Assembly: GCA_033439295.1 (NCBI GenBank)
Contig: JAVTLE010000005.1
Span: 372,001 to 436,000 of the forward strand
DNA: 64,000 bases
From: Deuterostichococcus epilithicus
Taxonomy: Eukaryota; Chlorophyta; Trebouxiophyceae; Prasiolales; Stichococcaceae
Direction: 5' to 3'
Part shown: positions 1-64,000 of the stretch, one piece after another
Numbering within the stretch: position 1 is the first letter of the stretch
Layout: every line of letters begins with the position of its first letter
Translations under genes and position numbers: made by a program
Notes under the pieces: model-generated
Seen by the model: only the letters and a program-made list of their open reading frames with translations
Database searches by the model: none
Told to the model about the DNA's origin: nothing

Positions 1-955
1 GCTGCATGGCCATCCACAGCGCGCCGCAGCATGCGTGCATACAGTGCAAGGAGCCTTCCTGCGCCCAAATGATAGCAGCGAAATCAGGCTCGCTGTCAAG
101 AGGGCACGTAGGCATTCGCAACCCTATACTTGTCGCAATTGCAGCATCCGGGCGCCATGCTGATCCCTAAACAGTTGCAGATGATGCGAGAAGAGCGATT
201 GATTCATTTGCCCATGAGAAGGGCCAGGGAATCAGGCACACCTTCGCAGCCTGCAACGATGGGTGCTATGTTCAGCCGCGGATGAGCGCCGGCTACAATC
301 GTGCTTTCACAATGAAAGATCGAGCGGAATGCTTTGCTTGAAGAGCAGTCCAGAACTTCGATCACGGCGTCAGCTACGCTAGCCGAAGGCGTGACCACTA
401 AATGCAGACGCCGATGCGCGCGGCCTGGCAGATTTTTCACGCGCAGCTATGTGTCTTGCCGAAGATGTGCCAACCTGATCTTGTTGGCGAAAGCTGCTGA
501 CGGCGAATGAACAGTGCTTCTCGATCTCGAAGGACGCACCCCCCCACGTGTGCGCATTACTAACGAGTGCTCAACGACTGGGCTGTGCCAAATTCGACGT
601 CAAGCTGCCAGCCACAGCACCGAACAGCATGGATGATCCATCCGTCGACCCACTGAGCGGGCCAGGCGCGCGGTCTGCCCAGCCCCGTTGCGCCTCTGGT
701 GCCGCCACGGCGGCCTACGGGTGCAGGAACAACTGCTCGTTGCCTAGTCCTTGGCATCCTCGGCAACCTTCAATCCACAGTAGCAACAAATCAGCTCAGA
801 TAGAGGCCACAGTACATCATTCACAAGAGTTTCAGTCGCAGTGGATGTGTCGAGTCTTACCAAACGCGGCGTCCTGCAAGGCGTGGAGATGGCCGGCAAT
901 TGAGCCCGCACAGCAACATCCTCACGATCCGCAGCGGGCCGCGCGAGCCCGACCC
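1..955. other. Flanking region, no supportable gene
   Basis: This lies downstream of the GPI8 stop codon. Open frames on both strands are short, lack recognisable domains and look like GC-rich chance frames. The first bases may contain the 3' untranslated region of GPI8 (nearest position 955) or the edge of a neighbouring gene cut by the window. I see no tRNA, repeat or promoter signal that I can support here. Confidence 0.5.
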
Positions 956-3900
956 TCAAACTCGCGGGGCGGCACTGGACCAGCGCGATGCCATCACGGC
1001 TGCCGCCGCAGCCGCTGCGGCCCCCAGCAGCAGCGGGACGTCAGCGCCTGCATCCTGCCGCACAGACCACCCCGCAGCAAACCCCGCCAGCTGGTGCTGA
1101 GGCTGCGGCGCTCCTTCCTGCTGCTGCGGCTGCGCCGCCTTCGCCATGTCCGTGCGAGAGCCGCCAGGTGGTTCTGCTGCTTCGCCGCCGCTGCCGCCGC
1201 CGCCGTCGCCAGCCGCATGAGCCGCCGCGCCCGCCGGCCCCAGCCCGGACGCCGCCTGGCCAGCGCTGGCCACGGCCGCTGGCGCGCCGGTCGCTGGCGC
1301 GTCAGTGGCGGCCACGCGGGGCAGGCTGCCGAAAAAGTCCATGACGCGCACTTCGTGAGGGTGCCGCGGGAACAGCGCGGCGCCGCACACCAGCGTGGAG
1401 TCCAGCTCCTTGCTCCTGCGGGTCAAAAGGCAATGGATGGCTGGATGCAGAGGCGAGGTCAAGGTAGCTGGTGCTCTCTTGGAAGAAATCCCTACTTGAC
1501 ATTCACAAGTTCCTCCATCAGGCCCCGCGGTTGAGACCATCCTGGTCGAGGCAACTCCTGTGCAGCGGTGAATCCCTCCTAGCACCAGCTTCGTCACCAT
1601 TGGTGGGGAGACAACAGCGCCACATGCAGCCGGCGGGTCTAGGGTGTCCTCAGCCGCACCCGACATAGTCCAGAAACTGCTGCAGGGTGGCGTTGGAGGC
1701 GGCGTCGAGGCCGTTGAACCACTGCAGCCCATGGTACGTGACCCGGTCTGTGACTGTCAGCCCCACGTCCATGTCGGTGTGGTGCGAGTAGCTCTTCTCA
1801 CCTGGCGGGGTTCACATGCAGCATGATCAGGTGTGTGTCCTGTTCTGTGCCTGTTAATGCCCCCCGGCAAGCAGAAGACAGAAACGCCTCATGAAACTGG
1901 CAACGGCATCTGACGGTACCACATGCTGGAGGCTTCGGACGCTGTGGATGGATGCGCAAGCAGTCATGGCAGTCCGTGACAGGTCATGCCGCCAAGCTCT
2001 GAGAATGACGGCAATTATGGAAGACTTCCATTGCGGAGCTGACTGGTGGTGACGGTAGGACACCGGACGAGAGGATCCCTCCCGAAACCTAACAACCCAC
2101 CCAGCTTGCTGGTAGCGATGGTGAGCACGTTAGGGGAGTAGACCTTGGCCGTGAGTGTCTCGGCCTCACAGGTCTCCACAAATAGCAGCAGCTGTCGGTA
2201 GCGCGCCTTCTGGTGCATCTGCGCGATCGCGTCGGCAATGTCCTGTCCAGAAAGAGAAGGCAAGTGTAAGCATCAGCGCATTCGATGCTGCTCGCCTGCA
2301 GGGTCGGACATACAGCAGCAGCGGCTGCTGGTGCCGGTGTATACAGCCAAGTTGCAGTCTCCAGCACAAAGGCAATTGGGTGCACATAGCCAGTGTGTTG
2401 CATCCCAAGGGCTCAGTGGCGCTGTCTGCCCGACGCAGGCCCCCGGCCAACGCTCTGTACTGCTGACCAAAACCAGTAATTCACACACAAGCTGGCCGCG
2501 CAAGTACCTGCGTGGCGCACAGCATTGCAACAGCCACAGCAGATACGGCTCACCATGGCCCAGCCACACAGCCATAAAGTCAATGCCGGTGTGGCATGCC
2601 ATGTACACCAGCACTTTGTGAAGTGAATTTCTATCCAAAGAAACACCTCCAGAAACCCCCTCCTGGCCCTGCGACTTCACCAAGTCGTCGCCGCCGTGGC
2701 CTGCCAAGTACGCGAGCACTTGTTTGCCCCAAGAGATTGTGCCAAAACCAGCGGAAGGGAGCCACACCTGGCCCATGACCTCCTCCTGGTCCTGAAATTT
2801 CATGAAGTCGTCGCCGCCGTGGCCCGCCAGGTAGACGAGCACATTGGAGCCGGCGTCCGACAGCAGCCGCTTGCTGCGGGGCACGCCCGGCGCGTGGCGG
2901 CCTGCGGTGGAGCGGCAGTGACACGGCCTTGCCGCAGGATAGGAGACTGCACAGATGCGCGCAGCTGGCAGCAGGCGCTCGCTGCGCTCGACGCATGGTG
3001 GCCTGCGGTTCCCCTGGAATTAGTGAGCGCACTGCAGGTTGCTGCTGATGCCACCTGAAAAGATGCGGGCACGGCTTGCTTTGCAAAAAATCACACACGC
3101 GCTGGGTGCCTGAACGCGCACTGACCGTCATCTGCCAGCGACACCCTGCAGCTTCTCAGCGGCAAGAATGCCCATCCCATGTATTTCACGACCACGGTCA
3201 CATCAAGTCACCGATCTGCCAGGATCAGAAACCCCGACAGACCCCGAACGAGTTGGCCTGGACATCTGCAGCCGGCTCCTGAAGAACGGCTTCGCGTCCG
3301 GCAGGATCCCCTGCACCATTCTCCAGAGCGACTGCCCACTGAGCACACACCCCGCGCACCGGTAAGCACCCGCAGAAAGTTCTCCACGGTGACCTCGTAG
3401 CCGCGGTAGTCCACCTCCACCGCCTCGCCGTACAGATTTGCCCCGTGGTCCTTATTGTTGAAAACCTGCGCGCCGCAAGTACAGCGGCTGAACGTGCTTT
3501 AGGGTTTTAACCCTAAAGCCGCTGCTGTGGGTCAGTCACTGGTGCTAGCGACATGATGCCGACTGTTCTGAAGCCAGCCAGCTGCTCGCCAGGCTTGGTC
3601 TGAAAGACTGAAAGAGTCTACCTGGCCGGGGTAGGGGTTGCGAGGGTTGCACGCCATGTCATCCGGCAGCATCAGGATGATGTTGCTGTCTGGGATGCCC
3701 AGCCTGCGGCAGGGCTCAGACGATTTGCTTTCCGGCATCATGTTGCATCTGCCCCCATGCTGGATGCATCATATGCAATGGCTTGTATCACACAGGCGTG
3801 AACCAGAGCAGCCCGAGCGCCGAGCGTAAAACCCACCGCCGGCAGATGTGGTAGAAAGTCAGCGCGTCTGAGATGTGGCGGTAGTTGAACCAGTAGCGCG

Positions 3901-4039
3901 AGGTGGACAGCAGCACCGCCCAATTGCTGGTGTGGGCGCCCCGCTGCGCTTTGCTGGGCTGAGGCGCAACTGCCTGTGCCACGGCGGCGATGGCGCACAC
4001 CAGACACAACACCGCCGCCAGGCCATGCACATGCCGCAT
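956..4039 (-). CDS. GPI8: GPI-anchor transamidase catalytic subunit GPI8/PIG-K
   Basis: Cysteine peptidase of family C13 that cleaves the C-terminal signal of precursor proteins in the ER lumen and joins them to the GPI lipid. Seven exons on the minus strand: 4039-3837, 3703-3622, 3465-3360, 2901-2780, 2242-2101, 1801-1660, 1415-956. All phases agree and give 418 residues, near the usual family length. The start is the ATG opening a hydrophobic signal peptide (residues 1-23). Diagnostic segments are [49 protein letters not shown] and VRVMDFFGS. The catalytic dyad is visible as His158 in AGHGGDD and Cys196 in VETCEAE. The last exon carries an Ala/Gly-rich tail of about 110 residues and no obvious C-terminal membrane helix, unlike animal PIG-K. 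The intron after the histidine exon holds two worn copies of that exon's end (separate entry). Confidence 0.93.
2565..2845 (-). repeat. Triplicated end of the GPI8 histidine exon
   Basis: The end of the GPI8 exon encoding [18 protein letters not shown] is followed in the intron by two imperfect copies. One is offset about 123 bp (it would read [17 protein letters not shown]) and one a further 104 bp ([11 protein letters not shown]). The DNA run agtcgtcgccgccgtggc starts at 2806 and again at 2683, and the third weaker copy starts near 2579. The whole stretch stays open in the exon's reading frame. The genuine donor is at 2779. Confidence 0.85.
3496..3519. repeat. Telomere-motif inverted repeat in a GPI8 intron
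   Basis: A near-perfect hairpin with arms GCTTTAGGGTT and AACCCTAAAGC around a two-base loop, so plant-type telomere units TTTAGGG and CCCTAAA face each other. It sits in the second intron of GPI8. It is probably neutral; it could be a relic of a telomeric-repeat insertion or repair event. Confidence 0.6.
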
Positions 4040-4398: not shown

Positions 4399-7300
4399 AT
4401 GCGCGGCAGCAGGCGCAAGGCTCATCAGGTGGACGGCCTGGGCCTCGCCCGCGTCCTCGCGCTGTTCGCGGCGCTCGCTGCTGGTGCCATCACCTACGTT
4501 TCCGTGCAAACGCTCGGCCAGCTCGTACTGCAGCAGCACAAGGGCGCCGCAGCTGCAGGAGCAGGCGCTGCCGTTGCCTCTGGAGCAGGCTGGAAGGAGA
4601 CATGGCGGTTGGCATCTGAGCTGGGAGCAGGTGAGGCTGGTTGGAAGGCCAATCGCGTTTGGACAACTTCGTCGGTAGCGTTTGCAGGTGGCTGCGGCAC
4701 AGCCGGCCCGCACTGTCCGCACTGGCACCTCTTGACCGATACATCGAGACGTCCATCGAGCATGCCAGTATCTCGATTGCGTGACCGAGCAGCAGCGCAA
4801 TGTGCACATGGCGCAGCCCGACCTGTCCCGCTGCAGCAGCTCATGCTAAGGAATGGCACGGCTTGCATCATGTGTCTGATTTCTTTTCGCTTCTGGTGCA
4901 AAGTGACTCCTGAAAGCGATCTGGATCGCAGTCAGTACAGCCGGCCGTACCGCTGCCCACCAAACTTGATGGCGGATGCTGTGGCGCCTGCAGAGAGCCT
5001 GGGGTTGCGGCATAACCCGCACGGCCTGTACGGCCGGGCACTGACCGACGGCGGGAGTACCCACCACCTGCCTGAGGTACAGAGTGCCATCGGCGCGGCG
5101 GCCACCAAGGCAGCTCAGGTGGGCGCACGAGCAGATAGCAGCGGCGCCGCGGGCGGCGATGCTGGCGGCAGTGGCAGCGGCAGCGGCAGCGCGGTCGCGA
5201 ATGGGGCACAAGGCAGCAGCCGCGCAGGCAGCGGGAGCATCGCAGGCAGCGCCTCCGCAGGCAGCGGCAGCTCAAGCAGCGCATCAGGCGGCGGCGGCGC
5301 CCTGGGCAGCCTCCCTGCGGAGTGCAACGTGATGCCGCACACAGAGTGAGTTTGCCGGTGGAAACGGAAACACCGAGCCACTTGCGATGGCCGAATGCCA
5401 ACTACGCACTGCTGCGCTGATTTGAGCATTGTGCACAACAGAGAGGACTTCAAAACCGTGCACGACAATGGCAACATCGTATCGGATCTGCAGCTTCACG
5501 TTTGGGGACCCGGTGAGGTGGGGTACGGACAACCATGTGGACTCTGCAAGCCAGTGCTGCAGACAATGCCGCGAGTTCAGGCCCGCCTCCGACAACGACC
5601 TCAGCTGCAACGGTGAGGGATGACGCACCATGCTGCACATCAAAAGCTTTGCTTGAAATCGCTGCTGTGCTTTCTATTACTATTCGTGTTCATGGTTATT
5701 GGTTTTATTGGTGTGACCGCGTTTGTCATGAAACCTGTGGAGCAGCGCGACGCAATGCCTACTGCACATGCGATAGCAGCCACAACCCCCTGTGAGATTC
5801 TGCAATCCGGCTGCAGTGTGGGTCTGGTGCGGTGACAAGGAGGGCTGCATGGGCCACCACCGGGAGTGCTGGCTCAAGCACCTGGTGAGCACGCACGTCT
5901 GCCCTAGACCATGGTGACATTCTACGTGTAATGTAAGGCCTGCATCCTGCCACGACGCTGCTACGCTTTCACTTGATTGACCTTAATCCCGAGCTGCATC
6001 CGGGTGCCGCTGCTGAACGTGGGTGCCAATCAGGGCCACGAAGCGTGGACCAGTCATCTGAGCCGTATACGCGGGACACAGAGCTTCACCGGATCGCATG
6101 ATTCCACGACACTCACAGCATGATGATGGACATCACGATTTCGCGGGGGAATGCGTACAGGCGCACCCGGACGCGGTGGTGCCCAACGAGGGGCCGCAGG
6201 TGGCCTGGACGGCGGGCTTTGTCGGGGAGAGGAACGAGGGCCCCGTCGCTGTCTTGGTGCGCCCACATGGTCGCCGGCTGTCTGCATGGCTGACCGCCTA
6301 ATGACACGTGCTGCAAGGCCACGCAGGCAGTGCGGCAATTCGACCGCGTGCGGCGGCTTGCCTCCGCCCTTGCAAGCATGGCTTGATATTCGAGGGTTGG
6401 CCTCTGTAGAAGCTGCCAGCTGGTGCAGGGGGCTTGCACAAACCAAACAGCTGTCGCTCTCGTGGAGGCACTGCTGAGGGCCTCCAACAAACAGTCGTTT
6501 TTGGGCTCAATGATACCTTTTCGCGCTGCTCCTACACTTCTGAGTCCTGCCTTGAGAACGTTTCCTCGCCTTTCGACTTTGCCCCATTCGATTCTGCCTT
6601 TCGGATGTCGTCTCGCCTTTTTAACTGCAGGATCCAAATGAGGACAGGTCCTTCCACACGGTGATCACGGCGGAGGGGTCGGCCACGCACTGGCAGTCGC
6701 GCATCAGCTACTACCACTTCATGAAGGTCAAAAAGGCCTGCGTGGCGCGCGGCAACTGCCAGATGGTGCGCCTGTCGCCCACGTGCAGAGGGCAGAGGTT
6801 TGCCTGGTTGCGCAGTGTCCTGCTGGCTGATCCTGGGCCCCATGCTGGGCAGCTCCCAAGCGTCTGTGCTGGTTTGCTAAGACAGCCTGGGCTGCCGCGC
6901 GGGGTGGCAAGGCCATCAATTCTTCAAGTTTGCTTTAAGTTTGCTTTAACAATAAGAAGTTGTTTTCGTACTTGAGTACCATTTAGCTGGGTGTCTGTAC
7001 GTCCAGCGTAGCATATCCGTCTGTCCAGACGGACCCCTTGGCAGGGGCTCGTCCCTGCAGACGCATGGGATGTTGCGCGGCGGGGTGGCACGCGTGTAGT
7101 GCCGTGCCTGGCGGGTGCTGTGGGCCCCAGTTTGGGCGATGGCGGCGGCTGTTTCCAGCTCCCTGTGAATCCCCCTCTCGGCCTTGGTCTCCATCGAGGA
7201 TGGCAGCATGCCGACGGTGCAGTCGCTCCTGCCCCGCAGGGCGGCTTCACGCGGGTGCTGCACAGCGGCAAGGAGGACGACCTGATGAACGAGATCCCCA

Positions 7301-9980
7301 CCTTTGTTGTGGACCCGCTGCCGCCGGAGAAGCACGGCAACGGCAACTATGTCGTCATCAACCGCCCCTATGCCTTTGTGCAGTGGACCAGCAGGTGAAT
7401 TTTTCATTTTTCAGGGTTTTTCAGGGATTTTCAGGGTTCATTTCGCGCTCACAGAACGACAGACTCGACATGGGGTTCTGCAGGCTGTGTGCCTGCATGC
7501 AGCAGCGGCTGAAATTGCGCCGGTGCCGGCTCCAACCCCCACCCCCCCCTCTCCAACCCCCCCTTTGTGCATTGGACCAGCGGGTTGCGGGCCGACACAC
7601 GAGCAACTTGACTCGCACATTTTCGAGTCTGTTGCGCCCGTCCATGGCGCCTACAGCATGTTGTTGCCTTGCATGCCTGCCATGGGTTCACCACTCGCAA
7701 GTCTGCACAACTGCTCAACAACTGGCGCCCCTGGGCCCGACACACCCTATCCGATCTGGCAGTGGCATCACCGCAACCAGGGTTAGGGCTCGCTTTTCCA
7801 AGGGTCATTCCCTCGCAGGTCGTGCCGTCGGCAGGCGCCCGTCTCAAGCTTGATCAGAAGGTGCTTGGGTCAGTGAAAGGCCAAGCACGCAGTGAGTAAC
7901 ACTGCGAGCGCCCGTTGCAGGGCGAGGATCAAGGAGAAGTATGTGCTGATGTCGGAGCCAGACCACATCTGGCTGCGCCCCATGGCCAACCTCATGAGGG
8001 TGCGCTCATGCCAGGTTTCGAGGGTTTGCAGCTGGCCGTCCCGTTTCCATGGCATGCGCGCATGCCACAACACGGTCAAGCGACTGCCCGCCTGCAAGCA
8101 CTCTTTTAAACGATCCTGTGACTGCCTGCATGCAGACAGTCTTCTGAAAGGTTCTTGTGACGACCCTCGCAGGGCGACCGGCCGGCAGCTTTCCCCTTCT
8201 TCTACATAGGCACGCCGCTGCCGCCCTGTCCGCCTGCATGTTCATGCTCCCTGCTGCACTCATTCTGCATTGCCGCCCTCAACGTCTGCTACTGTCGCCC
8301 TCAAAACACCTGCAATGGCCGCTGCTTTGCTTCCTTGGGGCGACACAGTCCCGTGCTTTGTACTGACTGCGGTGGCCGCCCCCACCTGCTGCAGAACCGT
8401 CCAAGAAGGAGATGCTGCCCATCACGGAGAAGTTCACCGGCAAGCTGACGCTCAAGCAGGCTGAGAGCATCGCGCCAATCGGTGAGCCCCGTCCTTGCTG
8501 TCCGCTTCACCTTCCGCCTTCCATGCTTTTCTTTATGCCACCCAACCCCCTGCATTTCGTCCTGCTGCTGCATGTTATCTTTCTCGTTGCGCTCACAAAC
8601 GGTTTCGCCTCCTGCGCCGCAGGCAACGCGCCGACGATGATGGCGTTTGACGACTTGGCCAAGGTCAGCCCGCTGTGGGTGAACCTCAGCCTGGCCATCT
8701 TCAAGGACCCGGACGCTAACAAGGAGTGGGGCTGGGTGCAGGTGCGGCACCTGTCAGCCAGTCAATGTAGCCCAGTCTCCAGAGCAGAAATTTTAGAATC
8801 CGTGTGACTTGATGAGGAGATGCGCGCCAGGGCGCCAATGAGGAGCGAAACTGGGTGCAGATGGGTTTGTATCTAATGCTCCATGGCTCAATTCCAACAG
8901 GTGTGCAAGGTTTGGGCCTCGGGCCCGGAGAGCTGTGATTTGGATACTCAGATGCCGCCCTTCGGCCCCTCCACTTGGGTTTGCAAACTTTGTCTGCTGT
9001 GGTCCAGGCCTGCCACTCCGGCGCTGATGCAGCTGGCAGCTGGCAGATTCACCTGGCATCGCTGACCGGCTTGCGCTGCGCGTCCCAAATCCCTGAGCCC
9101 AGCCTGCCGCGCCCTGCAGGAGATGTACGCGTTCACGCTGGCGTGCTACAACGCGGGCATCCGGCACATCGACCTGCACAAGAAGATGATGGCCCAGCCG
9201 CCTTGGGACACAGGTGAGCATCCACCTTTTCTGCTATCCGCCTCTTCCTACTGTAGTTGATTGCTGCTGCTGGACTTTGCAGGGCTGGGCGGCTGGTTCA
9301 TGCCCGACGCTTCCTTCTGTCTCATGAAACTGGATGCAGAGCTTGATCCATCAATAAGCCATTGCAGCTGCTGTCTCTGAGCAAGTGCTCCCATCGACCC
9401 TGCAGAGCTGGACCCGTATTACATCCTGCACTACACCTACGGTGACGACTACACCCTGGACGGCCAGTTCACGCCCGGCAAGGTCGGCGCCTGGCACTTT
9501 GATAAGCGCACCTGGTCTGGGAGGCCTGTGGACCGCCACCTCAAGCCGCCGCCCGACGGTGCGTATTGCATGTTCGCATCCTCGGCTGCCTTGCCTCACA
9601 TGTGGATCTCGGTATGTGGATGCGCTGGCGGCAGTTCTGTGCGCCCACAAGCGGCTGCCCAGGCAGCTGGAGGCGATGGCGCAGCGCCGAGCTGGCTGCG
9701 CGGATGCCTGTCATTCGAGCAGCCTCCGAAGCAGCTCTCATCCGGACAGGGATCAGCTCGCAATGAATCCCATGGAATGAGACCGAAACATTTCTGAAAC
9801 CATTGCGCAGGAACAAGAAGTGACCTGGTGCGCAAGCTCATTGATGCTATCAACGAGGCGACTGACACGATACCCGGGTGGGATGATTACATCCGGGAGC
9901 GCGTAGCGAAGCAGATGTGGGACGGCAAGACGTTCGGCAAGTCGAACATCGCGGCCAAGGAGATGGCTGAAGCGCGGTGA
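4399..9980 (+). CDS. Hydroxyproline O-arabinosyltransferase (HPAT/RDN1-like), membrane anchored
   Basis: Golgi enzyme family that adds arabinose to hydroxyproline of extensin-like glycoproteins and secreted peptides. Fourteen exons: 4399-4630, 4994-5345, 5494-5612, 5817-5884, 6161-6256, 6631-6765, 7240-7394, 7921-7999, 8173-8209, 8395-8481, 8623-8741, 9120-9213, 9406-9558, 9811-9980; 631 residues with consistent phases. The start opens a short basic tail and a membrane helix (residues about 15-37), giving a type II topology. A low-complexity Gly/Ser/Ala stem follows, then a cysteine-rich PAN/apple-like module (ECNVMPH to CWLKHL, eight or more Cys). The catalytic domain contains HTVITAEG, HSGKEDDLMNEIPTFVV, a DxD-like EPDH, PFFYIEP and HYTYGDDY. 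Intron 9 uses a GC donor at 8210. Intron 1 (4631-4993) is 363 bases and has no stop in frame, so the first boundary is less certain than the rest. Confidence 0.92.
7372..7584 (+). repeat. Echo of an HPAT exon end inside its downstream intron
   Basis: The end of the exon finishing at 7394 (bases gcctttgtgcagtggacc onward, 7372-7395) recurs with few changes at 7561-7584, an offset of 189 bp, including a donor-like position. The intervening bases include a short run of tttttcaggg-like repeats at about 7400-7440. Confidence 0.7.
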
Positions 9981-12431: not shown

Positions 12432-12465
<34 letters not shown>

Positions 12466-16818: not shown

Positions 16819-18825
16819 ATGCTGGCCCTCAAGCAGGCATTCCAGGGCACCGCGCTGTGCGGCACCCTCAGGCAGTTCCTGGCATCAGACGTAGCAGTGC
16901 TTAGCCGCTTCGCCTCATCCGACGCAACAAAGGGATTCGGCAGCCCGACATGGGGAGCGGTGAGCATGCATGTTGATGGCTGCTGTGGACGATTGCGGGA
17001 GCCTGTCCAGCAACGCTGTCGGGTTGAATCAGTCTCGCCGACTCGAACTCACGATCGTATAAGATACAATGCGCTGCGATGTCGAGATACATCCTTGACG
17101 ATCATCAGGGCAAGACTGATGCCGCAACGTGCAGGACAATGTGAGGGAGGACACAGGCGCGGGCCGCGAGTACGAGGCGCAGGGTGGCGAGAACGCCAAG
17201 ACCTTCGCCACTGAGGCCAAGGAGAAGATCGACGTGCGCGCCATCGAAACTTGATCAGTGCTGACCGCACGCCGCATGCAATGGAACGCGCATATGCGGT
17301 CACGGGCTGATGCGAGTTCTCCCTGCGTCACAGCACCCTAATGCGGCACTCCTGCACGTAGCGCAAGAAACCCTCCCTTTTCTGATAGGCGGCCGTTGCG
17401 AAGTGCAGGTGCCTTTTCAGTATAGAAGTGCGGGTCTGCACAGCGCAGGGCATTGTGTTGCGCGGCCCCTGAGGAGGACAATGCTTGGGACGCGTGCAGG
17501 AGAAGACGCAGCAGGTATCGCAGAAGGCTTCCGAGCTGGCGAGTGAGGCAACAGAGAAGGTCAGCTCCGCGGCACAGAAGGCCCAGGCCAAGGCAGATGA
17601 GGCGGTCGGCAACACGAAGGTGGGGCTTCGGCAGGTTCATATGTGGCCGCAACCCAGGAGCTATGTTGACATTGCGGCGGGGATGGGGCAACGCAGGGGC
17701 TGGTCAGCCTGTTGTCGATACGCATGTGGGCCGAGCCGGGCCGAGCTGGGCCGCGGGTGCAGATGACAGGTTGCCCTGTGGTATGGAGAGTGGACTCTAC
17801 TGACCGATTTCTGATGAGGCGTGACGCTCATGCTGCTGAGAGACGCGGTGCATACATGCTGTGCGCCGCAGAGGACGATCCCAGCTACCTTGAAGCATGG
17901 GCCTCCAGTCAATCCTCTCCTGTGCTGCAGGCCGCCGCTAGCGAGGTCAAGCGCAAGACGGAGGCCGCCGCCGGCAGTTCAAGGGATTCCGAAACTTCTT
18001 TTTATGTCGACTGCACTGATGGCTTGGTGGCTCTGCAGGCCGCCGCAGGCAAGGCGAAAGGCAAGGCGGAGGCCGCCGCCGGCACCACCGAGGGTGAGCT
18101 GAAGGGCAAGGCGGAGGAGGCAAAGGGCAAGGCGAAGGGCACGGCAGCGGAGGCAGAAGGGAAGAAGGAGGAGCTGAAGGGCAAGGCGGCCTCGGCGGCG
18201 GAGGAAACCAAGCAGAAGGCGCAGAGCACCTTCGAGACCATCAAGGTGGGTGGTCAACCCGCTTCCTGAATGGCTGGGTGTTTTGAATACAAAAGAGGAC
18301 CAATCGCTGTTCAAACGCCGCCTCGGCGGCTGAGGAGGCCACGCAGAAGGCGCACAGCATAATAAAGATAGGGTTTCGATTTGCCTGAATTGACATTGGA
18401 AAAGTCCGGAGTCCAGATGCAAAGGCAGCCTACTGTTAGGCAGCCAGGCTGAGGCCGCAGAGCACCTTTGCAGGTCGAGTCCGACAGCACATCTGCGTTC
18501 TGTGCTCGGCAGGGAACACAGCAGATGCAGTCTGATGCACCACATGGAGCACATCGGCTTGCTTCCCGTTCCTCTGTGCTGCTCTTCTTGGCTGAATGCT
18601 GTATGTAGCACGAGTCATCAAAACGTGCGTGCGATGAGCAGCTGACGCCCATGCAGCATGCAGCGACTCCACAACATGCGGGTACAGCCACCAGCGCATG
18701 GGAGCCAATTTGGGCTCGTGCACCATCAGGAAGCCTCGTGACTAACACCTACTTCTTGCTGTGCACAGGAGAAGGCAGCAGAGGCGACCGAGAAGGTCAA
18801 GGAGGCGACTGGCATGAAAAAGTGA
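16819..18825 (+). CDS. Group 3 LEA-like protein with probable mitochondrial presequence
   Basis: Hydrophilic, intrinsically disordered protein that becomes helical on drying and protects proteins and membranes. Exons: 16819-16959, 17135-17233, 17500-17619, 17931-18245 (or starting at 18039), 18769-18825; 243 residues (207 with the later start). Every exon is a multiple of three bases and every intron is phase 0. The first 34 residues (MLALKQAFQG to SRFASSDA) form a basic, Ser/Ala-rich leader like a mitochondrial presequence. The rest is built of Ala/Lys/Glu-rich 11-residue units such as GKAEEAKGKAK and EKVSSAAQKAQAK, with no Cys or Trp in the repeats. Exon 4 has two possible acceptors 108 bp apart, each in a copy of the same DNA, and its end is echoed downstream near 18316-18370. 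Confidence 0.85.
17921..18372 (+). repeat. Echo duplications at both ends of LEA exon 4
   Basis: Start side: ctgcaggccgccgc plus about 50 following bases occurs at 17925 and again at 18033, offset 108 bp, each with a usable AG acceptor and both in frame. End side: gcctcggcgg and the following 50 bases at 18189 recur at 18320, offset 131 bp, with the donor decayed in the second copy. Confidence 0.8.
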
Positions 18826-50528: not shown

Positions 50529-53500
50529 TCACTGCGAGCCGGCGCCATCATCCCTCATCAGACGTCCCAGCCTGGGCCGCCGTCCCCGCTCCGCGTCATA
50601 CTCGCTGCCGCTGCTGCCGCCCTGAGCCGCGTCCTCGGCAGCCACCGCAGCACCTCCCGCAGCACCGTCTTCATATCCGCTGCTGTCCAGGCTGATGGGC
50701 GCCAGCTTGCGGCGCGCCGCCGCAGCGGCGGCCCGGCTGCCGCGCCGCAGGACGCCGCCGCGGGCGCCTTCGCCGTGTGCGAGAGCCGCGGCCTCCGCTG
50801 CCGTGTCAGCCTCGTCGGCTGCATCCTCGTCGCCTGGCGAGGCTGCAGCCGCCTGCTTCCTGCCGCGCCCATGGCTGCGGCCCCGGCCGCGGCCGGCGCC
50901 AGCGCGGCCGCCTCGTGCAGTGCGGCTGTTGCCGCGGCCACGACGGCCCCGACCGCTCTCAGCACCCGCCGCCGGCTCTGCCGCCGAGGACAGCAGACTG
51001 CCCACCGGGTTGAAGGCCTCCTCTGTGGCGGCTAGCGCCGCTGCAAACTCCGGGTTCATCTCCTCTGCCTGCAGCAGAGAATTGCAGTCAGATGCACATC
51101 ATGTGGAGCTGAAGGCCCGAGCTTTTGACACTGTGCCGAGTGCATCACCAGCTTCTGGGCACTCAGCGCCGCGCAAGACACACTTGTGGCACCAACTGCT
51201 CCATACGTGGCGACCTGGGATGACAATGCATCGCACTGGATAGGGCTTCTGCCCAGCGTCATGGTGGCACATGCAGTGGAGGAGCTAGCGTCTCCATGCG
51301 CCCGCATCGGTCAGACAGCCGCCGAGGCCAGTTCCCTGGGCAGCTATGCACATTTCAGCCCAGAGCAGGGTCCAAATGCGCACCTCGCCAATGCCGGCCG
51401 CCAGATCGTCGAGGTCTACAGATGCGCCGCCGCCGCCGCTGCCGCTGCGGCCGCGCAGCTGCGCCGGAACATCGCCGCCCGGGAGGTGGATGTCCGGATT
51501 GGCATTGCCCGAGATGCCCGCCACCGCTTTCTGTCAGGTAGGGTGTGAACATTCGAACATCCGAAACCTCACAGATGTGAGCATCCTTGAGGCAGCGCAC
51601 GAACAACAGCAGTGCCACAGCCAAATTTTGCCTTCTGGAGCGAGCCAGCGACAGAGTGACATGTTGGCGCAGGTAAGCTCGTGTGGATGCACCGACGCCA
51701 GGCGGCAGCTGGCCACGTGCTGGCCCAGTCGAACATGCGCGGCAGGGTGATTTGCTCGCACTCGGCCGTGTGCACGTGCAGTTCCAGCAAGGCAGCCAGG
51801 GGCAAGGGGGTTGCAGGAGCGAATGTCGTCTGCGGGTCATGTCCTAGAACATGGAGCCGGGGGCCGCAAGGGGCAGGCAGCACCTGCAGCCGCGACGACT
51901 TGATCTTCGCGAAGCGCTGAGAGAAGGTCAGGAAGTGGTCCATACGGGTCTGGTCCACCCGCGCGTCGTGCGCCTTGAGCACCGGCACCAGAAGCTCGTC
52001 CGCCTCCACCTGAACTCCAATACGAGAATGAATATGAGATGGATACGAGGTAAAGACCAGTCCTGAAGGAGCCGCAGATCAAAGGGAAGTGGTCTAGGAC
52101 TTTGAGCGCCTGGTCCAGCCGCGTATCATGCGTTGTGAGCGCCGCCACCCGCGCACCCCCCTGCTGCACCATCAAGGCATGGCACCGCTTGGAAGGAAAG
52201 ACTGTCGATTGTGTGACCCCCAGGAGTGTCACGACTCAGTCGAAGCCAGTTTGTGGGTCAGCCTCGCCAGCGCCAGGTGGCTGCGGCAGCAGCAGGAAGC
52301 AGCTCCGGTTCAGGGCGCCAGCAGAATGCATCCCTGCAGCCGCTCCCTGACCAAAGGTGACCATCACAGGTGGGACAGAGCCCAGGCATCGTCCTGGCTC
52401 CAGCCCAGCTAATTTGTGGCAGCAGCTGCGCAGCTGCTCTTGCACAGCATGCCTCGCACATGCTGCAGCCTCGGCCATTAACAGCCGACACTGAGCAGAG
52501 GAGCCGCAATCACCAATCTGACTCCAGCCCAGCTTGGTGCTGCAAATTTTAGGAAAAGAAAGGCAAATTTTGCGCAAAAACACGGAAGCATAGCTTTTTC
52601 ACAAGCAAACAGGCAACGCAGGAGCAACGCAGGAGCTCCAGGTAGGGAGCCTGTGTGGCAGATTTCATGAGCCGTAGAGGCTCTGAAAGCTGACCTGACT
52701 CCAGCCCAGCTTGTTGGCGCAGAACTTGCGCAGCAGCTCCAGGTCGGGGCGGCCGTGCGATATCTTGGCCCGTGACAGGTCCACGCGCGGCTTGGCGTAC
52801 GCCTCCGCCACCGCCGGGTTGGGAAATGACTTGGGCATGTCCCAGTTCTTCCTGCGGGTTTGATTGCCAAAAGGGGGATGGGGAACCGACTTGGGCATGT
52901 CCCAATTGTTCCTGCAGAATTGGGATGAGCTTTGAGATAATGCTAGGTTCGCCACAGGTCGTGAGAAAGCAGCAAGTAGCACGAATGTTTGGGTGACGCC
53001 AGAGACACTACACTCCTGCCGGAGTCGAAACCTAGGAGAATGCCTGGGCGCTGGTCTGTGCGATAGTGGTTACCTGGCTTCAGTAGCCAACAACCAGCTG
53101 CAGAAACTGGCTTCAGAGTCTGCACCCTGACACTGCGCTTGAATTGAAAGCGGCAGGGGGACCCCAGCATTCGAGCCCGCGCTGCATGTCACCTTGGCAG
53201 CGGCCTGGTCGAAACACGCGAAAGCGCTCACCTGACGGCGCGGTGGCGGCGCTTGAACTCCCGCAGCAGCGGCGAGCCGTCCTCCTCCGGCGCCGCCTCT
53301 CCGGCGTCCGCGTCATCGCCGCCCTCCTGCCCGCCTGCGCCTGCCCCGGCACAAACAGAAGCATCAGTGTGAGCATCAAACGGCAGTTTATCTATGCAGG
53401 CGCCACAAGCAGCCCAGAGGTGGACGCAGCCCACTCGCACTTGCTGGACGCCCGCACCCTCCCAGATGTCTTTCACCGGAACCAGAACCGGCGACCCTTC

Positions 53501-56500
53501 GCCGGCGGCCTCCGTGTCCGCTTATCACTGCAATGTGACGGCTGTGCTGACGGCACGATGCCCGGAGCAGCGCCCTTTGGGGGACCGCTGTGCGGCAGAC
53601 ACGCAGAAGCTGCGCGGCGGGGCGGGTGCACCTGCGGCACCCTTCCGGTGCGCCCCGGCCTCTGGCCGCCGCCGCGCAGCTGCGACGCTTCCAGGGACGG
53701 GGACCTTCCCGCCGGACGTGTTCGTGGTCACGACGACGCAGAGCGTTGCCCACCTGCGGCGGCCTTCCGGCGGCCGCGCCCCTTGCCCTTGGCCGCCGCG
53801 GCGCGCGCTGCCTCCGCGTCTGGCGCCAGCACCCACCGCCGAAAGTCCATCAGCGCCTCATCGCCGCCGAAGGCGTTCACCACCTCCACCGCATTCACGA
53901 TGCCTGCGTGGAGGCAGACCGGAGTGACAGGGCGACGGGCTCCCTTCGAGGAGTCTGCAAGCGCGTGTGCGGAGTGCGGATCTGCCGACAGGAGTGTGCA
54001 GCTGCTCAAAGCGCTGACGCACCGCACGCAGCCTGTCCCAGCCGAGCACGCCTATGAGACGTCAATCGCCATCAACCTGTCAACAGGCTGCGGACGGTGC
54101 GTCAGCGCCTTATTCAGCTCCACTCCTGCTGCCAAACCAGCGACCCTACTCTAACAACAGCGCAGCCGTACTGGCACTGCACATGTGACGCACATCACAG
54201 ATAGGCAGCAGGACCTTCCAAATCCACAGGTGCCATTGATGCCATCCGGCGTCATCGAAGTCAAGCAGCATCCTCCCTCCGACTGAGCTTCATCTGCAGG
54301 CACTTTCGCCGCCTGACTGGAGTTTCCCGGTTTCAGGGTTGTGTCGAGGGTTTCTGCGCACCAACACCGTTTATGCCGTCCGTGTAGTCGGAGCCCAGCA
54401 GCATGGCCAGCCGGATGAGCTTCGTCTGCAGGCATCTGACTGGTGTTTCCCGATCGACACAGACTCAGGGTTGTGGAGGGACCCTGCGCACCGATGCCGT
54501 TGATGCCCTCTGTGTAGTCGGAGCCCAGCAGCATGGCCAGCCGGATGAGCTTCGTCTGGTCCATGCCCAGTTCGGACTCGATGTCTTTGGCGAAATACTC
54601 CTCCACGTACGCCTTGGCGTCGAAAATGTGCCTGCGGGTGTAAATAGCAAAACCTTTGATGTTTGTGTGTCTGTACGTCTGTAGAGACAGCAGTTTTATT
54701 CACGATGTGCCTGCGGGTGGAGATGCTGCGGCGTCAGCTGCAGTCTGCATGCCTGTGCACGGGTGACGACGCAGCATGCGCGTTTCCAGCCCGGTCCCTC
54801 AGGGCTTAATGCCTGCAGGGCTTTGGCGGGAAAATTGCTGGCTCGGCTCAGCCCTGGACACAACAGGCGCCGTTTGGTTCCATCTGACTGACTGCTCTGC
54901 GCTTGGGGGAGCTTGCTGGCCTTGCGAGGGCGCCCACACCTTGGGCTCCTTCAGCTGCGAGGCTGAAGTCGTACAGCCTGCAACCTGGAAGCCTTGGCGG
55001 CGCAGAGACTGGCCGTCCAGTGCTCGGAAAGGCTAGATCGCTCGGACAGGGCGCGTGCCGCACCTGTACACGTGGCGGCCGCCAAACAGGAAGACGTCGC
55101 TGTCGTCGGTGACCACGCCGTCCACCAGGCCCGCTGCGTCCAGCCAGGCGCACTGCGCCTCCGCCTGCGGAGTTGAGGGTTCAGGGGCTCTGCTGAGTCC
55201 AGTTTGGCAGGCACCGGAGGCGAAATCGATGTCGCACCCGTTCGCCAGCGCGTTTGCCAACACAAGCCTGGGCATCGGGTGTCAAGCGGGAGGCATGTGG
55301 CGACCGCATGAGGCGGCCCCCACGGCTGGCATGGCCTGGCATCGCACACGGCTGGCATGGCCTGGCATTGCACAGCAACAGGAAGAAACATTCGTGCAGC
55401 AAGCACATGCTCAAAGGCGGCAGCATCTGACGCACCTCTCCGGGCGCGATGATGTAGGGCAGGCCGAACAGCTGCAGCAGCTCCTGGCACTCCGCGTACA
55501 TGTCCTCCGTCGGCGTGTCGTACTGCCCCGTCTGCGCAGGAACGCAGCGGCACGCTTTCCAGAGGGTGTGCTCCAGTGATGACAGGGCACGGTTTTATTT
55601 CATCACCCTGCTCTGCAAACATGGCCGCTGTCTGCATGTCGTACTGCCCCGTCTGCATGGGGGGTGGTTATAAAGATGTGCTGGATGTGTGTTGGCAAGT
55701 TCAGTCCTTCCTCTAGACGTTGAGGGTGTCCGCCGCGTCACATGAGACGCACACAGATGTGTGCTCAGATGTGTGCTTCTTCAAGATTTGTGTTGCCGAG
55801 TCGTTCCATTTGCCTACTCAGTGCTTAGCAGCTGCAGCAACCCAGTTAGGTGGAGTGTTTTGAATTCGTTGACTGGACAGGGCCAGCAGAAAATTGTGTC
55901 TTACTTCCAGGCATGGCAGCTGCAGTGTGCCAGGCCGAGTCTGCAGCCGCAGGCCGTCTGTCGATGCCAACAGTGGCTTAAACCCACAGCTGTAGCCCAA
56001 AGCTTGCCAGCCGCGGAACTGTGTGCGCCTGCGAACCCGCTTCCTCACGATGCCCAGCCCTGAAATCCTGCACCCACCTTTCGGTGCACTGACTGCCGCA
56101 GCTGCTTCCGAGCCAGGGCTCCACCCGATGTGGGACCACAAAAGTGCAGGAGCGCTTGCGTCAAAGCCATCAAGTAAACCCACCTTGCGGCGCGCCGACT
56201 GCCGCAGCTGCTTCTCCGCAGCCCCCAGCTTATCCAGCTCCGCATCGACGTCGAAGTCCGGCGCCGCCGCCGCTGCCGCCACAGCGCGTACCTCGGCGGC
56301 GCCAGCCGGGCCCACCGCAGCAGCGGCGGTGTCCGTGGGCTCCGCGGCGCCCCTGTTCAGAGTTTGCTGAGCGAGCTGTGCATCGGCGGCCGCCAGGGCG
56401 GCGAACTCTGCCGCCTCCGCCGCGTCGCCTGCCAACGCACACAGGCAGCTCGTGTTCCCGCCTCACAAGACACCAGGCTGCACTGGGTTACCCTTCGTGC

Positions 56501-59500
56501 TGCTTTTGGTGCACGTGTTGCTCTGGCTGCTACATTACGCGCTGCCTTGCGCTGGGGTCTGTGTGCCGTCAGGGATGTGTAGTGATGCTCACCGTCATCA
56601 TCGGCGTCCGCAAATACGCCGGTGCCCGCCGGCATGCCGTGCTCGCCGTCCGCGGGGCGCGCCCAGTCTGGCGTGGCGGCCTGCGGCTGCTGGTGCCGCC
56701 GCGCCGGCTGCGCCGCTGCAGGGCCGCCGCCCGTGAGGGCCGCCAGTGCCGCCGCCAGCTCAGGCGTCATGCCGCTGGCGCCGGCTGCAGCAGGCAGCAG
56801 CGTTCGGGCGGCAGACTGCGGCGCCACAGCTGCTGGTGCCTCAGGCGCCAGCGCCGCAGCCGCCGCCGCCGTCGAGCCGTCTGCAGCTGCGCCGCCAGCT
56901 GCAGGCCTGAGCACTGGTAGCTGTTCCGCCTTGGCAGTTGAGAACTGTGTTGGCTGCTGCAGTTGCACTGGCTGCACCGGCGGCGCCGGTGCAGTGGCTG
57001 CCTGCACTGCCAACTGCGCAGCCTGGTCTGGCGGACGGAGCGGCGGCGGCGCGCCAGCAGGCATGTCTGCCAGCTTGGCAAGTCGCCGCCGCTTCGGCGG
57101 CGTGGGGGCTGGCAGTGACTGCTGCTCCGGCTGCGGATCGTCCGCTGCCGCCGCTGCTGCCGCATCGTGCCGCGGCTGTGACGGCGCCTGCGGCTGCTGT
57201 TCTGATGCTGCAGCTGCCACCGCTGCTTGCTGGTTGCCAGTCGCCGGTGTTCGTGTACCATCCTCCCGCTGACCGGCCGCCGAGGAGGCTGCGCCAACAG
57301 GAGGGGCGACCAGCGAGGCCGGCGCAGCATCCTCCCATGTCCAGTCTTCGGGTTCGGGTGCATCAACCAGCAGCTGCTGCGCCATAGCCTCTGCGTCCGC
57401 AGGTGAACCCAGATGAACATTTGTTGAAAGAGGGCTTAATGAGCCGGACAGCACCCTATGCGCATATATGCCTGCCCTTTTGTCAGTTGCCCCCTCTGGG
57501 AGTCGAACCTGAGACCTCAGTCTACATGTTCTGTTGAAAGAGGGCTTGATGCGCCGGACAGCACCCTATGCGCATAGGACATCACTGCGGATAAAGATCA
57601 AGCAGCCCAAGACTTGTGTGTCTGCTCATGCTGTGGACCTGCTCCTGCACTGGCTGCCGGCACAGAGCAGTAGAGCAGGAGGACAGGAGGGAGCCGCTGA
57701 GATGCACCTGCTGGCTTTGCTGGCTAAGCCGGCTTCAAAGAAGCGCGCTCCATGCGAGACATTCAGCTTGCCTCAGCAGAAAGCACACCTGTCGTGCAGC
57801 CATCGGCATTGCCAGCGCCTCGGGCATTGTTGGCAGCCTCAGCAACCGCCGCCACCGCAGCACGGCCGCCAGTATCCGGCTCTGCTGCGCCGCCGGCGCT
57901 TCCTGCTTCCAGGCCCACGATATCTACGCCCCAGTCGTCTGTGTCGCGCACCTCCGCCGGCCCTGCCGCTTCCTGCTGCCGATTTCCACCTGCTTCCTGC
58001 CGCCGCTGCCGCGGCGGCGGCTCTGCCGCCGCCTGCTCCGCGCTGCCGGCTGCCACAGCTGCTGCGAGCGCTGGTGAGAGAGTAGATGCAGGCGGCTGCG
58101 CCAGCGCTGGAGCGTGGGCCGGGCCACTGTCCTCCCATTCCATTCCATCAGTTTCGCCGGGCGGCAGCACGACAGCATCTGCCTCTTCAGCAGCCCCTGC
58201 TATGTCCGGCTGGCGGGCCGCTGCTGGCAATCCTGCAGCTGAAAGCTGCGGTGACTGGGAGGGGACCTCGAGCGCGACCGCTGCGGCCATCGGCTTGCGT
58301 GCTGGCGCCGCCGCAAACTCAAAGCCCTGCTCGTCGCCGCTGTCGGACAGCTGCCGCTGGCGCCGCCGCCGCTTGAGCGGCGCACCACGCTGTGCGGCAG
58401 CACCGGGTGCGGCCAGCGGCGCTGCCGGTGCGGTTGCCGGCTGCTTCGGCGCCAGGGGCATTCCCGCAGTGGCAGGCGAGCCGGCTGGCGGCTCCGTGGC
58501 AGGGCCTGCGGTGTCGGCGGCGGGCAGCGTGAGCGGGCCATCGGCATCGAACCACCCCAGACCGTCACTGTCATCCTCGGCGGGCGGCCGCGTGATCTCT
58601 GCGCAGGCACCAGTACAGTAATCACCTGGCTCAGCATGCTTTGCGCTTTTCACATTTGATGTGTAGCTGCTTTCGCCAACGGAACAAGGTCGTTCCACTT
58701 CATGCCCTGGCCCGGGGCGATTTTTGCATGACTCAGGGCAACGCGCTTATTGAAAAGCTGTTTCAAAAAGCCTTCAGCTTTCAGCCTCTGCAAATTCTCG
58801 AATTGGCACATGGTCAAACCTCCCCGAATCCACTGTGAAGCACCTCCCGACGGCATGTCCTCGAGGCTGGCCGCAATGGCCGCCTGCACGTCTGCGTCCT
58901 CATCGGCGACGGCGGCGGCGCCGCCTCCCGTGGTGGCCGGCGCCTGCGGCTTTTCGCCCCACTCCCCCAACTTACGGCCACCCTGCGGCGCAACAGGAAT
59001 GATGTCATTGGACCAGGAGGCTTCCGGGGCTGCACAGTGGTGACTGTGCATTGTCACAACCAAGGTCAGGGCCCTGATATCGGGGAAGGCATGCCAGTCA
59101 CTGCAGCAGCGGCCTGGCCATAGCTGCGCACGGCACGCGGCACCAGCTGCGCGTGCTTTAAAATGCGCGAATGTGTGTGCACCGTCACCCTGGAGCATGT
59201 CGTTCAGGCGCTAGCAGCGATGCTGCCAATATGCAAAAGAGGCGCAGACCAGCCTTGAAGCCGTGGCTCGTGATCCAAAAGCGCTGCCGCTGCTGCATCT
59301 TTCACCTTCCAGTCGCAGCTCCAAAGCGCATGGATGGCTCTGGCAGTGACAGAGGAGTCACAGACGAACCTTGAAGCCGTGGCTGGTGCTCCAGAAGCGC
59401 TGCCGCTGCTGCATGCGCACACGCCACGCCGGCAGCGGGTTGCCATCGGTGTCGAGGCCGTCCACACTCGCTGCCAGCCGCTGCTGCTGCTGGTGGCTGC

Positions 59501-62500
59501 CCAGGTCGCCGCTGCCGACGTCCTCCCACTCCACATCGCCATCCTCGTCTTCCTGCTTCGCCTCGCCGCCGCCTGACCATTGAGATGACGAATGATTATT
59601 GGCATGGCATTTGTCAACGGGAGGGCTCGGCTCTGCCGAGTGAGTCTCTCACTGTCAGACCTGCATCACGCAGCCATCGTGTCCGCAGCACCTTGATAGC
59701 AACTTGCAAAGTTCTCCATTACGCCCAGCCGGATTTGTTTGTCCCTTTCGTAAGTGCATTGCAGGTGCATCTCCCCCACCTGCTCAGCCACATCGTTCCC
59801 TGCGCTTGTCTAAGAGACGAGGAAATGCCCATTGCATCTCCGTCACAAGCAGGAAGCAGACATGCCTCGCAAATAGACCATTACCTGTGAGGGCACCGGT
59901 GGGCAGCTCAAAGCTGATGTCCAGCGCCGCTTCCTCTGCTTCCTGCTGCGAGCCGTCCGCTGCCACCGCCGCCTCCGCCGCTGCCGCCTCCGCCTCCGCG
60001 TCATGCAAGATATACTCGCGGCCCTGCTCCGATGCGATATGGCGGCCCTGGAGCAGCAAACAACGGTATGCTTGCCCATCTGCATCAGGCATTGATGTAT
60101 ATGACACCGTGCTGCCATCAGAAGCAATGCCTCGCAATGCATCAAGAGCACCGACCTTGACATGGACCCTGAGGAGCAGGCTCGCGGAGATGGTCTGGTT
60201 TGCAGGACAGATAGATGCACGAATGGTAGGTGAAAGCAGCACCTGCACACCGCCAGGCGCATCGCTGCCGATGGCATCCCGCACGCTGTCGAGCTGCCGC
60301 CTGCGGCACCAGGCGCCGCAGGGGTATCAGCGCTCAAGAAGGGTGCGGCTGCCGAAAGATGTCCACAGGCGAGCAGAGGCAGAATTGCGGGGCTTTCTTC
60401 AGGGCCAATATGCCGCCGCAGGCCGTGACGTGGTCACAAAGAAGAAGAGCACGAGCTCATGTGAGGAAGGTGTGTGAAGGCGCCTAGCGCGTCTGTGCGT
60501 CGCACTGACTCATTCCTTCGAAGCCTCAGCATCAGCATCTTGGGCGGAAGGTTGGGCACGCTGGCCATGGGGAGTGTTTGCATCTGGAAAAGCTGGGGAA
60601 GCTGGCGGACAGGTACCTGTAGCAGTTCCAACAGGTCACATTTCTATTTAGACCCTACCTGAAGTTGCTGGCTTTGAGGAACGTCTGCATCTGGAAGGTG
60701 GAGAAGTCGGCGGGCACTCCGGAGCGCTCCACGAAACGCTCGCGGTTGTGGGCGTTTTGCGACTCGCGCATCTTGAGCAGCATCTCGTACTGCACCGACG
60801 GCGCAAAGGTGGACAGCACCGCCGGGTCCACCTCGCCACCCTGGAGCATAATCTCGACATCAGGTTTTTCCAGGCGACGGTGAAGGAGGGATGATCTTGC
60901 GGTCAGTGTCCCATGCGATTCCCTGCTGCAAGATTCTCGTTCGAGCTCGCTCATGCACAACCCGTCCCCCATGGCGCCTGGCGGACGCTGCCCCAGGTGC
61001 CTCCCCCGCCTGCTCCCTCCTTCGTTCTGCACTCCGGATACGGCCTAAGACCCCCATGCGCAGCCGGCAGCCAGCCTGTACCTCAGGCACCAGGTCCAGG
61101 ATCTCGTCCGAGTCGCTGTCCCCGCTCTGCGGCTCCTCTGCGGGGTCGGCCACCGGCAGCCCTGCGGCGCGCCGCCCGTCCCGTTCCGCACGCTGCTGCC
61201 GCTCCTCCTGAAAGCGGCGGCCCGCCTCGGCCGCGGCGCCGGCGCCGCCGCTGCGCAGNGGCCGCTCGCCGCTCGACGGGCCCGCCTCATGATCGTTGGT
61301 GGCTGCGCCGGCGCCGCTCGAGGGGTCTGAACCCTCGCGGGCGTTTGCAGAGGCGCCCGTGCTGCCACGGAAAGCCTCCCACTCCTGCGCGGCAGGCAGA
61401 CGGCCAGCGTCGGAGGTGTGGGGCTCTCACAACCGCGTGTGCTCGAGCTGAGAGTTGTCCGCACAGGTGAGCATGGGCAGCCCTGAGACGTGCAAGCAGA
61501 CAACAGAACCACCTGTACGGGCAAACACCACACAAACAGCCAGCACAGAGGATCAAACAACAGAGAGGAGGCTGCTCTCACCGCCTCCTCGTCGCTGCCG
61601 GCAGCGGCCAGCCGTGCCGCAAGCGCCGCATCGCCAGACACATCCGGCGGGAAGCCGTCGCCCGGCCCGGCGCCGCCGTCGGCTTCTTCATCAGGCAGCG
61701 CCGGGTCCCACTGCACCTTGCGCTTGGAGCCTGCTGCAGCGTGGGCCAGTGTCAGCACTCGGGATTGCATGTTTTGTTGCTCGCGTGCCCAGCGAGCGCC
61801 CAGAGCGGTGTGAACAATGGTCCGCATCGTATCGCGTCGCCCCATCTGCCTCGCGGTGCTGCGGTGCACATGCTCCCTCACTTTGCGTGCAAAGACCATG
61901 ATGTCGATGATTCCAAGTAAGTCGCCAGTGCACTAGACACTGCTCAGCTGGATACAGACCGACCTGCGCGCGCGCCAGCGGCCGGGGGCCGCGCGGCGGG
62001 TGGCGGCATCTCGGCCGCCTCCGCAGCGGCGGCGTGCGCATCCGCAGGCGCCTCCTCGTCCTCGTCCGCCTGCAGCTGCACGACTGGCAGCTGCGGCGCC
62101 CCTGCTTCCCGCTGCCATGATAACGCCGCCGCGTCTGCTTCCTGCTGCCGCGCCAGCTCCGCCGCCGACTTGGCCTCCCACTGCTCCGCCAGCTGCCGCT
62201 CCTCCTCGGGCGTGAAGCCCTTGCGGCGGCGGCGGCGCTTCGGCTTTGGCGCGGGCTGCGGCAGCCCCGCGACCTGCCTGATGGCGTGCTGCCTGATGCG
62301 GAGCGTGCTGCAGCTCAGGCCGGGCTGCCGGAACGCTGCTGGGCTCGATTCCGTGAAGATTGCGAGATGTTCTCCAGGGTCACGACAACCATTGCCGCTT
62401 CATAACAGCGGTGGCTGTCCGATGCACGTGAGCAAGGACTGCAAGCACTGCTGGAGCCACGATTGTGAATGTCCATCATCTTTCTGGTCATCTCATTCGA

Positions 62501-63197: not shown

Positions 63198-64000
63198 GGT
63201 GGCTACAGACGCGCGTCAGCTGCCCAAGCTCAATTGCAGTAGGTGCGGTGCGTCCGGCTGCACGTAAGGTGACTTTGACGGATGACTGTGGTTCTGATGG
63301 GAATCTTGGAATAAATCAGCACGGTAACAAGGCCGAGCAGCGAGCAACATGTCCCTGTACGTTACAAAGTCTTACGGTAGTTGCGCCATAGGGCCGCTAC
63401 AGCCAGCACATGACGAGGATTGGGACAACGCAAGTTTGCAGCGCTATGTGCGAATGTGCAGGCTGTGTGCAAACCTGCCTCTGGGCTCTGATCATGCTGT
63501 GCTTTGCTTGCAAAAACGGGGGTGCAGTTCACTACCCTGTTGCTGATGATGATGTGCTGTCCGCCCAGGTGAGCACAGTATCGCACTCTATGGTGTGATC
63601 TGCTCACGGGGGGGCCAGCACGTCAGGAGCGGTCGTGCCGCAAGGGGACGGACGCGGCCGCGCGGTCTGCCTGGGTGCAAACTGGCCCGCTTCCCTGCCT
63701 GAGGAAGGGCTGGTTTGAAAGCGCCTGCCAGCCGGGGGAGGACCCCCGGCGACCCGGCGGCATGCACCCGCTCATTGCGTACAGCGTGCATGGCGCAGCC
63801 TCGCGGCTGCTGTGCGTCGGTGGTCGCGTCGCCACTCACTCGGCAAGGTGAAAACCTGGGAATCGGATGTTTGCAGCTGATCTGGTCTAATGCCGCCACA
63901 GCTGACAGGTCTTCATCCGTCATTTGCTTCAAGCCCATAACAGCACTTCCGGGCTTGCAATGTGCTGAGGCAGCAGATCAGGGTCCGCCAAGCCGAGCAA
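63198..64000. other. XPG upstream region
   Basis: Promoter and 5' untranslated region of XPG, and possibly part of a neighbouring gene cut by the window end. A minus-strand frame starting near 63938 (MGLKQMTDEDLSAVAALDQ) begins plausibly but turns Arg/Pro-rich and has no recognised domain. Confidence 0.4.

Follow-up and report, generated by a model that had tools for sequence, protein, structure and literature searches.

Recurrent copies of exon ends inside the adjoining introns in sampled regions of the Deuterostichococcus epilithicus genome

Introduction

Why do introns of several genes in a green alga carry, close to a splice junction, an imperfect copy of the very exon that they adjoin? 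The question is raised by a 64,000-nucleotide stretch (C5:372001-436000, hereafter the window) of the 46.8 Mb genome of Deuterostichococcus epilithicus, which is assembled in 21 contigs. An initial annotation had described such copies, which we call echoes, in GPI8, HPAT, LEA and XPG genes. Here we find that pieces of exon ends are repeatedly copied about 100–150 bases off into the adjoining intron in the sampled regions. As an explanation, we think it probable that small tandem-type duplications persist at places where the redundant copy can be spliced out.

Methods

The sample comprised the window and 17 ten-kb stretches on 17 contigs, one of which is the window's own contig. A further 14 gene regions, added via two Pfam families, brought the total to 286 kb, or roughly 0.6% of the genome. 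The window and stretches (234 kb) were scanned for local, ungapped direct repeats with a score of at least 20 at offsets of 30–1000, using a complexity filter and local order-3 Markov sequence as the control.

Genes were modelled with an ab initio HMM gene finder, which took 29 Pfam-anchored exon cores as seeds, was then retrained and called 722 exons. It recovered at least 70% of 26 of the 29 seed cores and 43–65% of the other three, always in the matching frame, although finding the cores from which it was built tests it only weakly. The trained sites are CAG/GTGCGC for the donor and YGCAG/G for the acceptor; this consensus and the genes recognised by eye are suggestive of a green alga. GC donors amount to about 4% against GT among all predicted donors in the trained site model, a share that is not independent because GC is permitted there with a penalty. 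All exon calls are ab initio predictions, and comparison with protein homologues covers the GPI8 and XPG models only. Ten single ORFs from the window gave no Pfam match, probably because the exons are short.

For the intron test, the last or first 80 bases of each exon were compared with the exon's own intron in 425 predicted introns of 60–700 nt, at a match threshold score of at least 16. Length-matched introns from other loci served as the permuted control. Tandem and junction-limited events were simulated and passed through the same detection; the observed gap/mismatch ratio was 0.14.

Results

The direct repeats reported for the window were found again in GPI8, XPG, LEA and HPAT. In GPI8 (reverse strand), the parent exon at 2768–2901, called by the HMM and matched by a GPI-transamidase homologue, has in its downstream intron a first echo of 2778–2842 at 2655–2719 (offset 123, 83% identity) and a further echo at 2577–2616 (offset 105 from the first, 78%), both identified by sequence comparison. 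A solved GPI-transamidase aligns to the GPI8 model across the echo-bearing junction with no gap, a check that is independent of the HMM seeds.

Recurrence across four genes holds for GPI8, XPG and LEA and is less secure for HPAT. The LEA-like gene (forward strand, named by eye) has an exon at 18039–18245 whose coding sequence is also repetitive, and sequence comparison places an echo of 18183–18228 at 18314–18359 (offset 131, 85%) in the intron 18246–18768. A further direct repeat in LEA has offset 108, and a pair at offset 75 sits in a predicted coding exon of the repetitive protein and is an ordinary repeat. The HPAT-like gene, also named by eye, is a weak case: a stretch of only 20 nt near the end of its exon (7240–7394, forward strand) is repeated at offset 189 in the intron 7395–7920.

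XPG, on the reverse strand, carries echoes at many junctions. The parent exon at 51884–52009 (HMM and ERCC-5 alignment) has an echo of 51948–51989 at 52108–52149 (offset 160, sequence comparison), which the gene finder called as an exon (52101–52163) and where the ERCC-5 alignment has a 21-residue gap. The exon at 52695–52851 (HMM and ERCC-5 alignment) has echoes on both sides: a donor-side copy at 52515–52544 (offset 177, sequence comparison) and an acceptor-side copy of 52816–52862 at 52876–52922 (offset 60), preceded by CTGCAG. For the parent exon at 54492–54631 (ERCC-5 alignment), sequence comparison identifies an 87-nt echo of 54472–54558 at 54342–54428 (offset 130, 89%), and here the spacer is repeated as well (z 5.7), giving a full tandem unit. 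The ERCC-5 motif GSDYTEGI pairs with the parent copy; with the XPG model that retains the copies, the alignment stops directly after this copy, and the second offset-130 copy and the next exon are unaligned to ERCC-5.

Further along, the start of the exon at 55436–55531 (HMM and ERCC-5 alignment) is the parent of an acceptor-side echo of 55490–55535 at 55611–55656 (offset 121, 83%). Three donor-side echoes complete the series: 56072–56108, a copy of 56178–56214 with its own GTGGGT (offset 106, 89%); 59234–59298, a copy of 59350–59414 from the exon 59370–59572 (offset 116, 86%); and 60560–60589, a copy of 60667–60696 from the exon 60659–60840 (offset 107). An XPG intron also contains two non-coding 48-nt copies, 92% identical and 110 apart (57419–57576 of the window, reverse strand). 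Their spacer holds GGTTCGACTCC, which we take to be a tRNA T-arm-like stretch; ARAGORN found no tRNA in the window.

Across 234 kb the scan returned 48 local direct-repeat pairs, and offsets of 60–200 bp account for 37 of these. The Markov control gave 0 pairs, and 3 inverted repeats were counted under similar rules. At least one pair at an offset of 400 or less is present in 13 of the 17 stretches, and four have none. BLAST on the 286-kb sample gave 27 local direct similarities, 5 local inverted ones (4 being self-hairpins) and 12 dispersed ones. Where both copies lie inside one predicted exon, all offsets are divisible by 3 (5 of 5, all sources). At L004:5261-5616, tandem repeats at offsets of 123 and 108 nt fall in one predicted exon and represent a repetitive protein, not an echo.

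The intron test gave 23 matches on the near side, next to the parent exon (12 donor, 11 acceptor), and 4 on the far side (2 and 2), against 0.0–0.2 matches per class for permuted introns. The initial annotation was therefore right that copies lie near their parent exon, and the matches exceed those in permuted introns, the control that it had asked for. All 26 side-hits were direct and none inverted. The 14 anchored gene regions (88 introns) contributed 3 side-hits, 2 of them near-side, and 9 of the 17 stretches had no intron-level echo. The pattern is confirmed as real and extends outside the window.

Such numbers could still be ordinary background, any comparable intron-rich genome having as many. 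Within-gene tandem duplications have been reported in several eukaryotes, according to the consulted part of a review (PMC3443670). Against this, pairs are about 7 times as frequent per base here as in E. coli K-12, where the same kind of scan found 3 direct pairs in 100 kb, E. coli not being an intron-bearing control. We consider this explanation unlikely, though far from negligible.

Echoes go with long introns. They occur in 19 of the 85 introns in the longest fifth and in 6 of the 340 others, and the median intron length is 474 nt with an echo and 235.5 nt without. The earlier proposal that echoes reshape introns is upheld as far as this association goes; that they cause the lengthening would be one reading of it. 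Echoes also show some clustering by gene (p = 0.03, or 0.05 with length stratification). Two single predicted genes, L018 (GH1-like) and L005 (GAF plus kinase-like), both named by eye, have 3 and 4 echo-bearing introns, respectively.

A further copy beyond the echo was present in 9 of the 26 side-hits, and arrays of at least three copies occur in GPI8, a C7 proteasome gene, XPG and L016. In L016, the second round repeated the whole unit, with spacers 96% identical (z 13.1). Upstream of the first copy, the L016 sequence shows no likeness to the spacer (z -1.3). Elsewhere, at G000:C13:1965931-1966449, two adjacent proteasome-profile matches overlap on the profile (positions 54-99 and 48-137), and the first contains a stop; this pair is perhaps another echo, visible at the protein level only.

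Direct orientation, the arrays and the whole-unit repeats (XPG at offset 130, the second round in L016) indicate tandem duplication. If whole units straddling a junction had been duplicated, the intron part should be repeated too. Of the 23 near cases, only 6 showed similarity in that part at z>2, as did 5 of 22 (p<.05) by a gap-tolerant local test. With the indel/substitution ratio set to 0.14, a fraction of 0.71 of simulated tandem events gave z>2, and at 0.30 the fraction was 0.57; these two settings bracket the gap/mismatch ratio that was observed. At ratios of 0.5 and 0.8 the fractions fell to 0.45 and 0.32, with gap/mismatch ratios that were then too high; 0.32 was reached only where the simulated gap/mismatch ratio was double the observed one. 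Since 57–71% of spacers were expected to be homologous, many copies seem truncated close to the splice site.

The similarity profile gives a related picture. Outside the junction, the 13 junction-reaching cases show similarities of.65,.45,.37,.26,.15 and.22 per successive 5 nt, reaching background within some 15 nt of intron. Simulated tandem copies gave.64,.57,.52,.47,.45 and.43 at a ratio of 0.14 and.58,.48,.44,.40,.39 and.36 at 0.30, and simulated junction-limited copies.58,.38,.27,.26,.25 and.25. Profile and counts suggest either a mixture of events or intron flanks that turn over faster than simulated.

These data keep junction-limited copying as a live rival. It holds that an exon end plus a few intron bases is copied into the adjoining intron, for example by template switching in replication or repair, so that the spacer is never part of the copied unit. 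The scarcity of spacer homology, the loss of similarity within about 15 nt and the unlike upstream sequence of the first L016 copy all fit. However, the simulation gives z>2 in only 0.05–0.08 of junction-limited copies, below the 6 of 23 observed, and XPG at offset 130 is a full tandem unit. We also know of no enzyme for such copying, which we count against it, and overall we hold it to be rather improbable. More doubtful still is a bolder version, in which copying of the first or last 20–70 exon bases with their AG or GT into the intron next to them would be linked to transcription or splicing and bounded by the junction, and repeated rounds would be a main source of long introns in the lineage. 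Only 1 of 23 flanks ran on into the neighbouring exon at a level just over the null, with no clear continuation, and copying from spliced mRNA was rejected on this ground.

Tandem duplication followed by splicing-out remains our main reading, and the condition of the copies bears on a different alternative, that they serve as functional alternative or mutually exclusive exons. Some copies do look exon-like to the gene finder, which called 16 of 52 repeat pairs coding at both copies, a count that includes true protein repeats. However, mismatches fall at all three codon positions of the parent (.107,.131 and.198 over 1038 aligned columns in 23 near copies, with 21 gap openings). The third-position excess is only 1.7-fold, short of the coding constraint of mutually exclusive exons. 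Such a pattern is expected if the copy evolves neutrally while the parent changes at synonymous sites. Frame breaks or stops are present in several aligned copies and the offset-160 XPG copy corresponds to a gap in the homologue, which leaves a role as exons very unlikely.

Thirteen of the 23 near copies come within 3 nt of the junction. Among these, 5 of 7 acceptor cases retain AG; of the 6 donor cases, 3 have GT and 1 has GC. With 9 of 13 overall, the earlier observation that copies often bring their own AG or GT stands.

The description of the process as ongoing found no support, because none of the longer copies is at least 96% identical. In the 20 near copies with at least 30 aligned columns, identities range from.75 to.93; none reaches 96% and one reaches 93%, whereas a constant-rate simulation expects 21% of copies at.96 or above and 34% at 93% or above. 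The shortage of young copies may mean that the process is old, or that very young copies are purged while both splice sites compete.

Two further origins can be set aside. Intron gain of the Rogers type, in which an exonic AGGT segment is duplicated in tandem, would account for tandem-type direct repeats with splice sites in both copies but puts a copy of the upstream exon's end at the far, 3' end of the intron, and we regard it as most improbable given 23 near-side and 4 far-side matches; the initial annotation had drawn the same distinction. Templated insertions at double-strand breaks are expected in both orientations. Such insertions or mobile introner-like elements deserve hardly any credence: the spacers, mostly 30–90 nt and without homology to the other flank, would suit them, but inverted copies are absent (26 direct, 0 inverted), the whole 286 kb holds 12 dispersed similarities, and the one spacer searched genome-wide, that of L016, turned up nowhere outside its own array and so gives no sign of a mobile element.

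Discussion

The reading that we prefer can be put as a sequence of events. Small tandem-type direct duplications would arise at many sites in the genome, mostly at offsets of 90–150 bp. Within exons, only in-frame duplications would survive. When a duplication straddles a junction, the spliceosome would keep using the outer site, that is, the first donor or the last acceptor. The mRNA would then stay as it was, and splicing would remove the surplus piece of exon, along with its AG or GT, inside an intron that is now longer. The discarded copy would decay free of constraint, and some sites would duplicate again to form arrays of 3–4 copies. Three steps of this sequence are what we infer: that most cases began with a tandem duplication, that cells use the outer site, and that the intron grows longer as a consequence. 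Counting against the tandem reading are spacer homology in only 6 of 23 cases, the fall of similarity past the junction, the unlike sequence upstream of the first L016 copy, the lack of copies at 96% identity or above, and the clustering by gene.

Several known systems resemble parts of this pattern. In plants, small tandem duplications arise when adjacent nicks or staggered breaks are repaired, and they share the size range and direct orientation of the echoes; they are not known to be linked to splice junctions. Work by Gao and Lynch from 2009 on internal gene duplication is said to concern larger segments with whole introns. It has in common with our case that local within-gene duplications are frequent and interact with introns, and differs in that partial exon ends are involved here. 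Chlorella genome papers may mention exon-like repeats in introns. A limited term search of the Coccomyxa genome paper and an Auxenochlorella paper found no passage on them.

That introns can be gained through tandem genomic duplication, as in the model of Rogers, has support (review in PMC3443670). Spare splice sites from tandem-type repeats are common to that model and to the echoes, whereas the copies here adjoin the parent exon instead of the far end of the intron. The nearest likeness is the potato RdRp gene, where, according to the consulted part of the report, a tandem duplication crosses an intron-exon boundary (Ma, Lan, Niu 2016, PMC4974935). Its unit contains an acceptor and an exon start, and part of the exon copy turns intronic. 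Direct repeats at a splice junction that contain exon and splice site are likewise found here. The potato report, as far as that part goes, concerns one case in which a new intron was made, whereas here there are many older cases, apparently enlarging existing introns, with echoes on donor and acceptor sides.

The claim that no description of the pattern is known goes too far. Among the matches listed, seen as titles and abstract openings, none described echoes as a genome habit, but the potato gene is a published single junction-crossing case. Our data extend this known kind of event to a recurrent one. As far as the searches went, three things are new: how many such copies one genome holds, that they lie on the near side when tested against permuted introns, and that they go with long introns.

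Echoes have practical consequences, as they mislead gene finders; in the XPG model, copies were called exons. Each echo is also a datable decoy splice site, useful for the study of splice-site choice under competition. In green algae of the Chlamydomonas group, introns are conspicuously long and the usual short peak is absent, and the benefit of this length is called unknown in the consulted part of one study (PMC8226300). If junction-straddling duplications lengthen introns in D. epilithicus, they would provide a testable mutational cause of long introns.
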